Shown here one piece after another: positions 39,029-58,146 of a DNA stretch of 64,000 nt. The stretch covers positions 1 to 64,000 of the forward strand of contig CADEDA010000001.1 in NCBI GenBank assembly GCA_902825965.1. The letters run 5' to 3'. Position 1 is the stretch's first letter, and the number at the start of each line of letters is the position of its first letter. The position numbers were made by a program, and so were the translations under genes. Origin of the DNA: an uncultured Gemmatimonadota bacterium (GTDB lineage: Bacteria; Gemmatimonadota; Gemmatimonadetes; Gemmatimonadales; Gemmatimonadaceae). The notes below the pieces were generated by a model. That model saw nothing but the letters and a program-made list of their open reading frames with translations. It searched no databases and had not been told where the DNA came from.

Positions 39029-41094
39029 ACGCCCCCGCTCCTCACCGCGCCGCGTCGGCCATCGTCAGGCGATTCGGCGGCGCGACGTTGCGCACACTCG
39101 CCATCGCCGCACTCGTGCTCGGCACCGCCGTGGTGGCCCTGCTCTCCGTCGACCGCGTGAATCGACCCGCTCCGGCGGGGGATCCCGGCATCGCGTGGGT
39201 GGACAGCACGGCGCGGCACCGTCGCCTGCTCATCCTGCATGTGGACAGCTGGCGCGACAGCAGCGCGCGCGACAGCACGCTCTTCCCGCTCACCACCGCG
39301 CTCCGTCGCCAGGGCGCCTCGGGCACACTGCAGGGCGTCTACGAGGGATTCACGGTGCCGGCGGTGCGCGCCGCCTTCACCGGGGTGGCCGAGACGCAGT
39401 TGGTGAACCTCATCCAGAACTTCCATTTCACGGCGCTGCCCCTCTCGTCGTTCTTCCGCGATGCACATCGCCTGGGGCGCCGGACGTTGGTGGTGGCCCG
39501 TGAGCCGTTCGTGCAGTTCGGGCCCGTGCTGGAGATCCGATACGACAGCACGCCCGGGCAGGACATGTACCAGACGGACGCCCAGCGTCCGCGGATCGCA
39601 CTCGACGCCTACGCCGCCGGCTACGACGTCGTGGTCTGCCAGTGGGAGACCTTCGACTGGGTCGCGCACGAGGACGGTGTCACCACGGCCCGCTATCGCG
39701 TGGCCGCACGGCAGTCCGATTCCGTGGTCGCCGCCTTCGCCGCCGCGCGCGCGCCGGAGGACTACCTCCTGGTCTATGGCGACCATGGGCACACGTGGAG
39801 CGGCGAGCACAAGACCGGCTACGACATCCCCGGCTTCGTGTTGCTGATCGGGCCCGACGTGACTCCGGGCGCGTCGCTGGACGACCTCTCGATCACGAAC
39901 CTGCGCTACCTCTCCTCGCATGCGTTGGGGATCGCTCTGCGCGGGGCGCCCTACGACATCGCGACGATCCGCCGCGCGGTGCCGGTGCGCAGTGATACCC
40001 TGGCCGGGTCGCCCACCACGACCGATGCCACGACCGATGCCACGACGGATGCCGCGACCTCGGATGCCGCGACCTCGGATGCCGCGACCTCGGATGCCGC
40101 GACACGCGAGCCCCACGGCTGGAGCACGCGCCCGCTCGATTACGCGCTGGTCCTCGGTCTCCTGCTGGGCGTCGTCGGAGTGGCCACGCTCTGCCTGCGG
40201 TTGCTCGATGGCCCGTCCCACTCGGCAGGAGCGCTCGTGCCGGCGTTCGCGTTGCTCGTGGTGGCCATGCTCGTGGCGCCGCGCATCCCGCCGGTGGACG
40301 TGTGGCTCCGGCCGGCGGGGCTGCCGGCCGTTATCGGGCTCTACGCGATCGGCGTCGTGGCCAAGCTATGGTTGTTCGTGCGGACCGCCGAGGGTCGGTG
40401 GCCAGCGGCGCTGCTCGCGACCGCCGGTGTAGCGGCATTCCAGTTCTGGAACGTGATCTACGAGCAACCGTTGCTCGTCGGCGCGCTGATCCTCCTGGCG
40501 CTCGGCGGCGCGACGCTGCCGCGTGCCGTCGGTGATCGCACGGTCGCGCGGCTCGCGTTGCTGCAGATCCTCGTGTTCGCGACGCTCCGCGTGCCGTTGT
40601 ACCTGTTCGCGTGGCTCGACATGGTGCTGCTCGGCACCGTCCTCCTGGCGTCGCAGCCGTGGGTGCGTGCGCGCTCCGCGCTGCGCGATGCGGGCCTCGT
40701 GCTCGTGGCGTACGGTTGCACGATCGGCTGGGTGCCGGGCGGCCTCGAGTGGGGCTTCCTCTACTCGGTGTTCCCCGCCCACCTGGTGGAGCTCGAGGTG
40801 CAGCGATTCCTCCCCCTGATCCTCGCCAAGATCCCGCTGGTCCTCGTCCTCTTCCTCGTGGCGACGCGGCGCGCGCCGGACCGCGGATTCGCGCAGGTGC
40901 TCCTGCTGATGGTCGGCCTGCGATTCGTCGCCGTCTGGGTGCTCAGCCTCGCCGGTGCACCGACGGTCGAGATCTGGCCGCTGGCCGAACACGGCGGGTA
41001 TCTCGCGGCGTTCGTCGCCGCGGTGGTCGCCTGGGGATGGCAGCGCCGCGTTACGACGACCCTCGTGCCAGCGATCGCAACAAGTCGGTCGTGA
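39025..41094 (+). CDS. Alkaline-phosphatase-superfamily membrane transferase (PIG-N/O-like)
   Basis: 689 aa. TM near 22-43, then a periplasmic alkaline-phosphatase-superfamily domain: LLILHVDSWRDSS (first metal Asp), the candidate nucleophile Thr in EGFTVPAVRAAFTG, FDWVAHEDG (metal Asp/His) and GDHGHTWSGEHK. A Thr/Asp/Ala-rich linker made of short DNA repeats (about 40018-40107) leads to about ten transmembrane helices (365-680). The layout matches GPI ethanolamine-phosphate transferases (PIG-N/G/O), which move phosphoethanolamine between lipid and glycan. With LicD and a CDP-alcohol transferase next door, a head-group transferase for an ethanolamine-like group is plausible. The gene's 3' end overlaps LicD by 44 bases. 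Confidence 0.82.
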   Translation: MNAPAPHRAASAIVRRFGGATLRTLAIAALVLGTAVVALLSVDRVNRPAPAGDPGIAWVDSTARHRRLLILHVDSWRDSSARDSTLFPLTTALRRQGASGTLQGVYEGFTVPAVRAAFTGVAETQLVNLIQNFHFTALPLSSFFRDAHRLGRRTLVVAREPFVQFGPVLEIRYDSTPGQDMYQTDAQRPRIALDAYAAGYDVVVCQWETFDWVAHEDGVTTARYRVAARQSDSVVAAFAAARAPEDYLLVYGDHGHTWSGEHKTGYDIPGFVLLIGPDVTPGASLDDLSITNLRYLSSHALGIALRGAPYDIATIRRAVPVRSDTLAGSPTTTDATTDATTDAATSDAATSDAATSDAATREPHGWSTRPLDYALVLGLLLGVVGVATLCLRLLDGPSHSAGALVPAFALLVVAMLVAPRIPPVDVWLRPAGLPAVIGLYAIGVVAKLWLFVRTAEGRWPAALLATAGVAAFQFWNVIYEQPLLVGALILLALGGATLPRAVGDRTVARLALLQILVFATLRVPLYLFAWLDMVLLGTVLLASQPWVRARSALRDAGLVLVAYGCTIGWVPGGLEWGFLYSVFPAHLVELEVQRFLPLILAKIPLVLVLFLVATRRAPDRGFAQVLLLMVGLRFVAVWVLSLAGAPTVEIWPLAEHGGYLAAFVAAVVAWGWQRRVTTTLVPAIATSRS
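40018..40107 (+). repeat. Short tandem repeats in the linker of the PIG-like transferase
   Basis: Two or three 12-base units (GACCGATGCCAC type) are followed by three 15-base units (GATGCCGCGACCTCG). They encode TDAT and SDAAT repeats between the catalytic domain and the membrane helices; all stay in frame. Confidence 0.85.
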
Positions 41095-57800: not shown

Positions 57801-58146
57801 CGGCGCGGCGCGGATTGGGCGGATACGCCGGCACCGCCACCACACCCGCGTAGAGGCAGGCGAAGAACGCGGTCACATAGTCCAGTCCCGGCGGGACCAG
57901 CAGCACCACGCGGTCGCCCGGGATGGTCCGATCGCTCAGCCGGACGGCGAGTGCACGCGCGCGTGTCTGCAGCTCGTGGAAGTTACGCGTGCCGCGGGTC
58001 TCCCCGTCGCCGCCGAGGAACGTGAACACCTCCTGCTCGCCCTGTCGCAGGCTGCGGTATTCAAGGACATCGACCAGGGTTTGCACCCGCGCTTGCAGGG
58101 CGTCGTCGGTTCGGAGTTGCACTGCGGAAAAATGCACGGATGGCAC
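54835..58146 (-). CDS. Fused fatty-acyl-AMP ligase / ACP / alpha-oxoamine synthase (serine-palmitoyltransferase type)
   Basis: 1103 aa from GTG 58146 (start uncertain). Residues 1-580 are a fatty-acyl-AMP ligase: P-loop YTSGSTGDPRGV, 'FWLPPFHDMGLIGGVLEPIYAAVP' and 'YLRTGDLG'...'GRLKDIIILQGRNYYPQDLE'. Residues about 600-675 are an acyl-carrier domain with the phosphopantetheine Ser in DLGLDSLG. Residues about 690-1090 are an alpha-oxoamine synthase: 'YASYNYLGLGGHP', DEAHSLGVIG and the PLP Lys in GTLSKTLASCGGY. It should activate a fatty acid, load it on its own ACP and condense it with an amino acid, probably serine, to a 3-keto sphingoid base. In Caulobacter these are separate neighbouring genes. 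Alanine, glycine or cysteate as amino acid cannot be excluded. Confidence 0.93.
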   Translation of the reverse strand: MPSVHFSAVQLRTDDALQARVQTLVDVLEYRSLRQGEQEVFTFLGGDGETRGTRNFHELQTRARALAVRLSDRTIPGDRVVLLVPPGLDYVTAFFACLYAGVVAVPAYPPNPRRADPRVSRIVADCGARVAVASSALMLRLEGWLALAPDLRALQWLEVSDAPAADASVWQPPDVTGDSLAMLQYTSGSTGDPRGVMLTHRHLLANLAAIHRVSAFRASDNAVFWLPPFHDMGLIGGVLEPIYAAVPTALLTPATFLQRPGVWLQALSDRRATMAGAPNSAFDLCVDRTTPDERAQWDLSALRVFYNGAEPVRYETMLRFAEAFAPSGFDPRAMLPCYGLAEATLLASGGPAGRGVSTAFVRRHELLGGTLVACAADASEAQALVTAGAPAPGTDIAIVDPDTSELLSEGRVGEIWVSSASVTDGYWNRPELDPLLHAMVPGRPDRYLRTGDLGAMHGGELIVTGRLKDIIILQGRNYYPQDLEVAVTRAHEGLRRGHCAAFAVPAANDSGAPDRLVIAAEVGRHHDSATDRLIWQAIRRELGAGPGVAPHEIVLVRANGIPRTSSGKLQRRACRAAFLDGSLDIVGRWRSPDRPAALPVDATIAFVLDWIAQETAQDVTTLSADAAPRDLGLDSLGMTSLAVALEERVGRRLVATELWEQPSVRAIVTFALRGERGVRREVDGAPMLSPAETTDIAKWPEVRALAERRRGLVDAGLDALFFAPHDGMAGRESVVEGRALLNYASYNYLGLGGHPAVLQATQEAVARWGTSASASRLISGERAVHRELEAELAAFTGLPSALAFVSGHATNTTVLPHLLGADDLVLCDALLHNSAMLGAAQSGARQLFFPHNDWEALDALLRRLRSGHRRALVIIEGVYSADGDIPDLARFIEVKTRHHALLMVDEAHSLGVIGRSGRGLAEHAGVDPTAVDISMGTLSKTLASCGGYIAGSSALVDYLRFSAPGFVFSVGMTPANAAAALAALRVLRAEPERVAVVQERTAEFVAACRARGIDIGGSHGAAIVPVIVGDAERALRLSQELRAQGIEAPPMLPPSVPEGQARVRFFVSSAHRPGDIVRTVNALEQALSLERATLHPARRHPSR

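Follow-up and report, generated by a model that had tools for sequence, protein, structure and literature searches.

Do a phosphonate operon and a set of sphingoid genes that lie close together in one bacterial genome serve a common product? The question is raised by a stretch of 64,000 nucleotides (the window) from an uncultured Gemmatimonadota bacterium, which carries an operon for the synthesis and activation of aminoethylphosphonate (AEP) and a module for long-chain base and ceramide synthesis. An earlier note on this DNA had placed the two gene sets within 12 kb of each other and had proposed lipids headed by AEP; the distance from the end of the AEP operon to the end of the fusion gene of the sphingoid module is 7.3 kb. 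In our judgement the locus probably makes a sphingophosphonolipid, most likely ceramide aminoethylphosphonate, and the movement of AEP onto a lipid by a CEPT-type enzyme is a well-supported prediction. The evidence consists of gene content, enzyme families, catalytic motifs, homology to Caulobacter-type ceramide enzymes and linkage across genomes.

The gene calls were checked against Pfam and NCBIfam profiles, and catalytic motifs were located separately. The AEP operon, the CDP-alcohol phosphotransferase, the sphingoid module, the FA2H-like hydroxylase, the glycosyltransferases and the exporter listed in the earlier note were all found by gene calls and family searches; their coordinates agreed exactly or very nearly, and the codon-position GC of all named genes is typical of real genes. 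The genome carrying the window is a 4.07 Mb assembly in 73 contigs, 95% complete. Comparison with the family covered 179 genomes; G codes denote genomes and L codes loci of relatives.

The AEP operon

The operon (43040-47512) consists of a PEP (phosphoenolpyruvate) mutase-nucleotidyltransferase fusion (PepM), a decarboxylase (Ppd), an aminotransferase (AEPT) and a stand-alone nucleotidyltransferase (NTP), in this order, and all genes overlap or abut.

43040-44620, plus strand: PEP mutase with a fused, degenerate nucleotidyltransferase domain (NTP_transf_3); PF13714, 5e-54; motif EDKQYPKLNS
44617-45750, plus strand: phosphonopyruvate decarboxylase; TIGR03297, 397 bits, over the 312.5 cut-off
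45747-46808, plus strand: AEP aminotransferase, PhnW/AepZ type; TIGR03301, 272.8 bits; pyridoxal phosphate (PLP) lysine motif SANKC
46808-47512, plus strand: PntC-like cytidylyltransferase; nearest solved structure 6pd1; motif GVGSRLALADDRPK

Motifs diagnostic of PEP mutase (EDKx5NS) and of the nucleotidyltransferase (GxG(T/S)Rx4-8PK) have been published (PMC6697681). The first, EDKXXXXXNS, is present as EDKQYPKLNS at residue 114 of the mutase, which scores 260 bits against TIGR02320, under the cut-off of 319.6. The aminotransferase misses the equivalog cut-off of TIGR03301 (272.8 vs 360.8 bits), which is its best family by far; this match and the position in the operon point to its identity. 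A degradative AEP operon was rejected because PEP mutase and decarboxylase are present.

The description of the operon as complete, with an intact nucleotidyltransferase, applies to the stand-alone enzyme, which has the full GxG(T/S)Rx4-8PK motif as GVGSRLALADDRPK. It does not apply to the domain fused to PEP mutase, where GxG(T/S)R...PK is absent; the motif occurs in none of the seven fusions examined, and the fused domain was rejected as an active PntC.

Among solved structures the stand-alone enzyme is nearest to 6pd1 (3e-8 with the single sequence, 8e-38 with a seven-sequence profile). This structure is the PntC-AEPT protein of Treponema denticola, a nucleotidyl transferase/class V aminotransferase, and inositol-1-phosphate and phosphocholine cytidylyltransferases rank behind it. 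The earlier note had mentioned that PntC-type enzymes can make CMP-AEP, and the product of 46808-47512 is the proposed maker. The PntC-like family also matches the nucleotidyltransferase found beside cerS, at the CC_1152 position, in Caulobacterales sphingolipid loci (profile match 99.9%, 2.6e-31).

The sphingoid module

The module (52718-58122) is encoded on the minus strand as fusion, GNAT and SDR (short-chain dehydrogenase/reductase) genes. A GT2 gene follows it, and a gene for an FA2H-like hydroxylase lies nearby.

54835-58122, minus strand: fusion of fatty acyl-AMP ligase (FAAL), acyl carrier protein (ACP) and oxoamine synthase (AOS), 1,095 residues; PF00501 (AMP-binding), PF00550 (PP-binding), PF00155
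53709-54875, minus strand: N-acyltransferase of the GNAT family, bCerS type (ceramide synthase); PF13480, with Caulobacterales homologues
52718-53698, minus strand: CerR-type SDR reductase; PF01370
51012-51578, plus strand: hydroxylase of the FA2H/SUR2 superfamily, proposed ceramide hydroxylase; PF04116, 1.6e-20, with histidine boxes

The fusion starts at 58122; position 58146, given in the earlier note, is an alternative GTG. Its catalytic motifs are intact, the ACP part having DLGLDSL, and we propose it to be a single-chain AasR-AcpR-Spt. The best solved structure for the AOS domain is a serine palmitoyltransferase (8.7e-66), and KBL/AONS score almost as well (1e-61).

The roles of aasR-cerR-acpR-spt and cerS have been described in Caulobacter (PMC11324152). 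When 80 Caulobacterales genomes were searched with the profile of the GNAT family, 24 proved to have a full-length homologue (4e-52 to 3e-106). In the six of these loci that were read, the genes just upstream are FAAL-like, SDR, small ACP-like and oxoamine synthase, in the order aasR-cerR-acpR-spt...cerS; the FAAL gene is truncated where the fragment ends in L174 and L175 and lies beyond that end in L173. Several Caulobacterales loci also have two membrane-protein genes at the lptF2/lptG2 position. The window's SDR aligned by hhalign with the Caulobacterales SDRs at the CerR position (100%, 1.7e-53); SDRs are generally related to one another, and the CerR assignment rests also on co-location. 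From the homologies of GNAT, SDR and fusion, the window therefore holds five Caulobacter ceramide functions, three of them in one protein. The FA2H-like hydroxylase has a 54% identical homologue in the G054 cluster, and FA_hydroxylase-family proteins also stand beside FAAL in Caulobacterales loci L176 and L178.

The CEPT-type transferase

To the left of the AEP operon lie two genes on the opposite strand.

41854-42867, minus strand: CDP-alcohol phosphotransferase, CEPT type; PF01066; motif DGMQAKx8GDFLDHHCD
41051-41788, minus strand: LicD-like protein, partial match; PF04991, 28 bits, just over the cut-off

The genes of the phosphotransferase and of PEP mutase are divergent and stand 173 bp apart. 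The CEPT-like character of the phosphotransferase, claimed in the earlier note, is borne out by both profile and predicted fold. Compared with DGxxARx8GxxxDxxxD, every Asp and Gly position is kept and the Arg is replaced by Lys. A six-sequence profile searched against the PDB returned CHPT1/CEPT1 structures first (3e-17), the next CDP-alcohol enzyme having a value of 0.04. In a Foldseek search with the AlphaFold model (pLDDT 84, pTM 0.84), CEPT1/CHPT1 were the sole matches below E 1e-3; they extend over the full length, with TM scores of 0.66-0.75. Equivalence of the enzyme to the one at the Caulobacter CC_1159 position was rejected (hhalign probability 39%). The product of 41854-42867 is the proposed CMP-AEP:ceramide (or diacylglycerol) transferase.

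The LicD gene of the earlier note is present and has a match, which is weak and covers 33 residues (33 of 227 profile positions) instead of a full-length domain.

Linkage of the two gene sets in relatives

If the two sets were unlinked in all relatives, as the earlier note pointed out, a common pathway would be hard to maintain. They are linked in G096 and G178 and partly so in G033. In G096 (L036), NTP-AEPT-Ppd-PepM, the divergent CEPT-like gene, an oxygenase gene, a homologue of the gene at 39115 (described below), the fusion and GNAT are contiguous within about 14 kb. One contig of G178 carries GNAT, a ketoacyl synthase, a 502-residue protein, NTP-AEPT-Ppd-PepM and the divergent CEPT-like gene, the fusion being on another contig. 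G033 has, in a row, fusion, GNAT, ketoacyl synthase, SDR, GT2, NTP, CEPT-like gene and 39115-like gene; its PepM-Ppd-AEPT genes are on a different contig from this cluster.

The window's PepM clade (over 50% identity) occurs in 4 of the 179 genomes, which belong to four genera, and three further genomes have a 38% identical PepM. All four genomes of the clade carry both the fusion and the CEPT-like gene. The full fusion is found in 12 genomes, two of them with split matches, and GNAT in 27, including all 12 with the fusion. The p-values of these associations ignore relatedness and possible joint transfer, and part of the data had been seen before their thresholds were chosen: the CEPT-like gene occurs in six genomes, five of them with the fusion (p 3e-6); the PepM clade falls within fusion genomes in 4 of 4 cases (p 1.2e-5), and the seven PepM genomes taken together in 4 of 7 (p 3.7e-4); counted by genus, the fusion accompanies the PepM clade in 4/4 vs 7/35 (p 7e-4). 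Given this linkage and co-occurrence, a chance neighbourhood of AEP and sphingoid genes, which the earlier note had left as an option, is unlikely. PepM, fusion, CEPT-like gene and GNAT are all absent from the other 16 genomes of the window's genus, so the island was probably acquired by this genome.

Sphingolipid genes of a further kind accompany the fusion in relatives. In L025, where the fusion is 75-76% identical, its divergent neighbour belongs to Pfam Lipid_DES, the sphingolipid delta-4 desaturase family (1.3e-12). This family (PF08557) is present in six of the 179 genomes, of which six have GNAT and five the full fusion; its gene adjoins the fusion in G178 and G033, is one gene away in G169, and in G164, at the end of a contig, is next to a fragment of GNAT. 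No PF08557 desaturase occurs in the window's own genome, which does have the FA2H-like hydroxylase.

Proposed pathway

PEP mutase, decarboxylase and aminotransferase (43040-46808) would make AEP, which the PntC-like enzyme (46808-47512) would convert into CMP-AEP. The FAAL domain of the fusion (54835-58122) would activate a fatty acid as acyl-AMP and load it onto the fused ACP. Condensation of acyl-ACP and an amino acid, probably serine, by the oxoamine synthase domain would then give a 3-keto long-chain base. N-acylation by GNAT (53709) and reduction of the ketone by the SDR (52718) would follow, the FA2H-like enzyme (51012) may hydroxylate the product, and the CEPT-type transferase (41854) would finally move AEP from CMP-AEP to the C1 hydroxyl of the ceramide. 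The substrates named here for nucleotidyltransferase, synthase and CEPT-like enzyme are predicted ones, as is the end product, AEP-ceramide and not AEP-diacylglycerol.

A more specific version can be put forward only tentatively: a dedicated ceramide-AEP pathway in which an independently recruited AOS with its own ligase and carrier serves as Spt, the CEPT-type enzyme is a CMP-AEP:ceramide transferase, and the NPP-like protein encoded at 39115-41094 edits or relays the AEP head group.

Alternative acceptors, head groups and products

Several observations weigh against ceramide aminoethylphosphonate as the product, and are considered here with the alternatives. Linkage rests on few genomes, which may share one transferred island.

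The CEPT-type enzyme might put AEP on diacylglycerol, giving an AEP analogue of phosphatidylethanolamine, and the ceramide genes might serve for a sphingolipid of their own, perhaps a glycosylated one. Diacylglycerol is a substrate of the CEPT-type enzymes whose structures are known and is held in structure 8ul9, and GT2 genes of the ceramide-glucosyltransferase family stand beside the sphingoid module. Furthermore, G167 (88% complete) has an AEP operon and a distant CEPT-like gene (33% identity), and no GNAT was found in it; the AEP/CEPT pair can therefore exist without the ceramide set, and AEP lipids without ceramide are plausible in that genome. However, all five carriers of the window's CEPT clade (at least 43% identity) have fusion and GNAT, and in G033 and G054 the CEPT-like gene is part of the sphingoid cluster itself. 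We take ceramide as the best single reading of the acceptor, and diacylglycerol, its main rival, as unlikely.

The head group might differ instead. In G054, fusion, GNAT, SDR, GT2, 38456- and 39115-like genes, CEPT-like gene and NTP stand in a row, and despite the presence of the last two in its sphingoid cluster this genome has no PepM at E below 1e-40. The cytidylyltransferase/CEPT pair may therefore handle another head group, such as phosphoethanolamine or another phospho-alcohol, which would be put on ceramide while AEP was used elsewhere or was one of several head groups; for the related nucleotidyltransferase of Caulobacterales sphingolipid loci, phosphoglycerate is the proposed substrate. 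Against this stand the arrangement in the window, G096 and G178, where the cytidylyltransferase gene closes the AEP operon and the CEPT-like gene is oriented away from it, and the finding that PntC is the nearest solved structure to the single cytidylyltransferase sequence. We regard this alternative as distinctly improbable.

Slightly less probable still is that FAAL-ACP-AOS, GNAT and SDR make a non-sphingoid N-acyl amino-ketone lipid, the synthase using glycine or another amino acid. In a quick IQ-TREE analysis, which included no labelled Bacteroidota or eukaryotic Spt, the fusion domains were placed apart from the Caulobacterales Spts and the stand-alone, GNAT-adjacent Spts of the family (SH-aLRT 98 between them), and the fusion signature is SASRLISGE (SASR..SGE) vs the GSR..NG of those Spts. 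Membership of the classical Spt clade was rejected by tree and signature, and serine as the substrate is therefore deduced from genomic context and from the nearest structure. The NCBIfam Spt models score 284 and 274 bits, below their cut-offs of 640 and 500, and BioF scores highest, also below its cut-off. Of the set of spt, cerR and ceramide synthase named in the earlier note, GNAT and SDR are the homologues of CerS and CerR, and the synthase domain falls outside the classical Spt clade. The amino-ketone alternative is opposed by serine palmitoyltransferase as the nearest solved structure of the AOS domain, by the CerS- and CerR-type partners, by the sphingolipid delta-4 desaturases nearby in relatives, and by the head-group genes, which make sense only with a C1 hydroxyl.

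Least probable of all is the main alternative of the earlier note, attachment of AEP to a glycan through LicD. On this reading the LicD-like protein would place AEP on a surface polysaccharide, much as in known phosphonoglycans, and the lipid genes nearby would be unconnected with it. The window does have a LicD-like gene, glycosyltransferases and Wzi-like proteins, and pntC is known to have LicD and glycosyltransferase genes as neighbours (PMC6697681), but the LicD match is partial, no homologue was found in the related AEP or sphingoid loci examined, and the CEPT-like gene is present in all four genomes of the PEP mutase clade.

The 39115 membrane protein and other neighbouring genes

39115-41094, plus strand: membrane protein with an N-terminal phosphodiesterase-like domain of the NPP/alkaline phosphatase superfamily and a C-terminus with multiple transmembrane segments
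51597-52733, minus strand: GT2 glycosyltransferase, ceramide-glucosyltransferase-family match; PF13506, 2.5e-13
58182-59822, minus strand: conserved protein of unknown function, recurring beside sphingoid genes
59961-61787, plus strand: ABC exporter of the MsbA/HepA type, candidate lipid flippase; NCBIfam HepA/MsbA-like, below cut-offs
61756-63156, minus strand: GT2 glycosyltransferase, recurrent in the same loci; PF13506/PF13641

The product of 39115-41094 is a candidate AEP or phospho-head-group transferase or phosphodiesterase. Its NPP/ENPP-like Foldseek match, a lead only, was obtained with an AF2 model of low overall confidence (pLDDT 57). The family occurs in 7 of the 179 genomes; six of them have the fusion, including all five genomes with both fusion and CEPT-like gene. 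Within the gene, at 40016-40103, are two overlapping short tandem repeats with units of 12 and 15 bp; they encode a Thr/Asp/Ala-rich linker that joins the phosphodiesterase-like domain to the membrane part and is absent from four aligned relatives. In four relatives a 2OG-Fe(II) oxygenase gene that is not found in the window adjoins the 39115-like gene (L036:6826-7554, L025:13765-14463, L210:214-921, L211:8330-9013). The two that were scanned have a HalD-like Pfam match and the other two are alike by eye; they could hydroxylate AEP or the lipid.

The GT2 gene at 51597 is kept beside sphingoid genes, with 50-65% identical homologues in L025, L030, L031 and L147, and the protein encoded at 58182 has homologues of 38-59% in the G178, G096, G054, G179 and G163 loci. 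The G178 contig that carries GNAT and the AEP operon also has a 69% homologue of the ABC exporter, adjoined by a 73% homologue of the GT2 at 61756. A Wzi-like protein is also present in the window.

Elsewhere, a lower-GC stretch (12709-17120) encodes a 1,028-residue AAA_16/NB-ARC-type ATPase protein and a convergent HD_5-domain protein, with weak matches to defence models. Near the window start are ordinary genes for an ATP synthase A chain (6017-7015) and a sugar-type nucleotidyltransferase (2174-3166).

Spread of the fusion and variation among ceramide loci

The FAAL-ACP-AOS fusion was found in Gemmatimonadota, Planctomycetota, Verrucomicrobiota and Lentisphaerota. Among the relatives closest to the window's fusion, the named ones are Gemmatimonadota, several of them Gemmatimonadaceae; judging from these, the window itself most likely derives from a member of that family. 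In Planctomycetota and Verrucomicrobiota (L097:13274-15327, L096, L042, L035, L072) the next gene after the fusion encodes an ABC-transporter ATPase and, where checked (L097), an ABC-2 permease gene comes after that, a candidate lipid exporter.

Some relatives of genus g14 that lack the CEPT-like gene have PAP2-family proteins beside the fusion cluster (L027:7992-8897, assigned by Pfam; L022:13443-14351 and L023:15918-16889, alike by eye). These are possibly another head-group enzyme, and head-group enzymes therefore seem to vary. A beta-ketoacyl synthase, not present in the window cluster, recurs beside sphingoid or AEP genes in relatives (L030:13084-14331, L029:7985-9202, L139:2-1261, L141:14661-15902), which suggests a dedicated acyl-chain step. 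Many genomes of the family without the fusion have a stand-alone Spt-like gene beside a CerS-type GNAT, some with a CerR-type SDR (L202-L209). Judging from these genes, one bacterial family would contain two kinds of ceramide system, one with the fusion and one with a stand-alone Spt-like protein.

Comparison with known systems

Ceramide aminoethylphosphonate, the predicted product, is known as an animal lipid in molluscs and cnidarians (PMC9174665 and others). In bacteria, Bdellovibrio (Bacteriovorax) stolpii has a sphingolipid whose sphingoid base carries a phosphonate at C1 (review PMC6148460), as predicted for the window; the likeness is drawn from the published description, and this organism belongs to a different phylum and has an Spt of the classical type. 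In the literature searched we found no biosynthetic gene set for the animal lipid, no description of the head-group genes of B. stolpii, no gene set from any organism for adding a phosphonate head group to a sphingolipid, and nothing on the combination of FAAL and oxoamine synthase. Among the listed titles on Gemmatimonadota and sphingolipids, none announces such genes. For phosphonate-headed sphingolipids, familiar from invertebrates and B. stolpii, the locus offers named candidate steps from AEP to lipid, in several genomes. It suggests that bacteria have a second type of enzyme for entry into ceramide synthesis, the FAAL-ACP-AOS fusion, and that the bacteria studied here carry out sphingolipid chemistry of the eukaryotic type (CEPT-like transfer, delta-4 desaturase, FA2H-like hydroxylase).

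The four activities and the motifs of the Pnt pathway (PepM, Ppd, AEPT, PntC; Rice et al. 2019, PMC6697681) are shared by the window, as is the NTP_transf_3 domain fused to PEP mutase, found in about one third of PEP mutases (PMC6697681). The Pnt pathway is tied to LicD and glycosyltransferases, whereas the window operon is tied to ceramide synthesis and a CEPT-type transferase. With eukaryotic CEPT1/CHPT1 that transferase has in common the full-length predicted fold (TM about 0.75) and the Asp and Gly positions of the CDP-alcohol motif; it differs in being bacterial, in sequence (about 20% identity), in the Lys that replaces the usual Arg of DGxxA(R/K), and in its predicted donor, CMP-AEP.

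The phosphosphingolipid locus of Caulobacter crescentus (CC_1152-CC_1168) shares with the window FAAL/AasR, ACP/AcpR, oxoamine synthase/Spt, the CerR-type SDR and the CerS-type GNAT, together with a related nucleotidyltransferase (CC_1152 position) and, in some Caulobacterales loci, an FA_hydroxylase. In Caulobacter AasR, AcpR and Spt are separate proteins, whereas their counterparts in the window form one protein whose synthase domain belongs to another clade. The window's CDP-alcohol enzyme is of CEPT type and only weakly similar to the product of the gene at the CC_1159 position, and the head group, phosphoglycerate in Caulobacter, is predicted to be AEP in the window.

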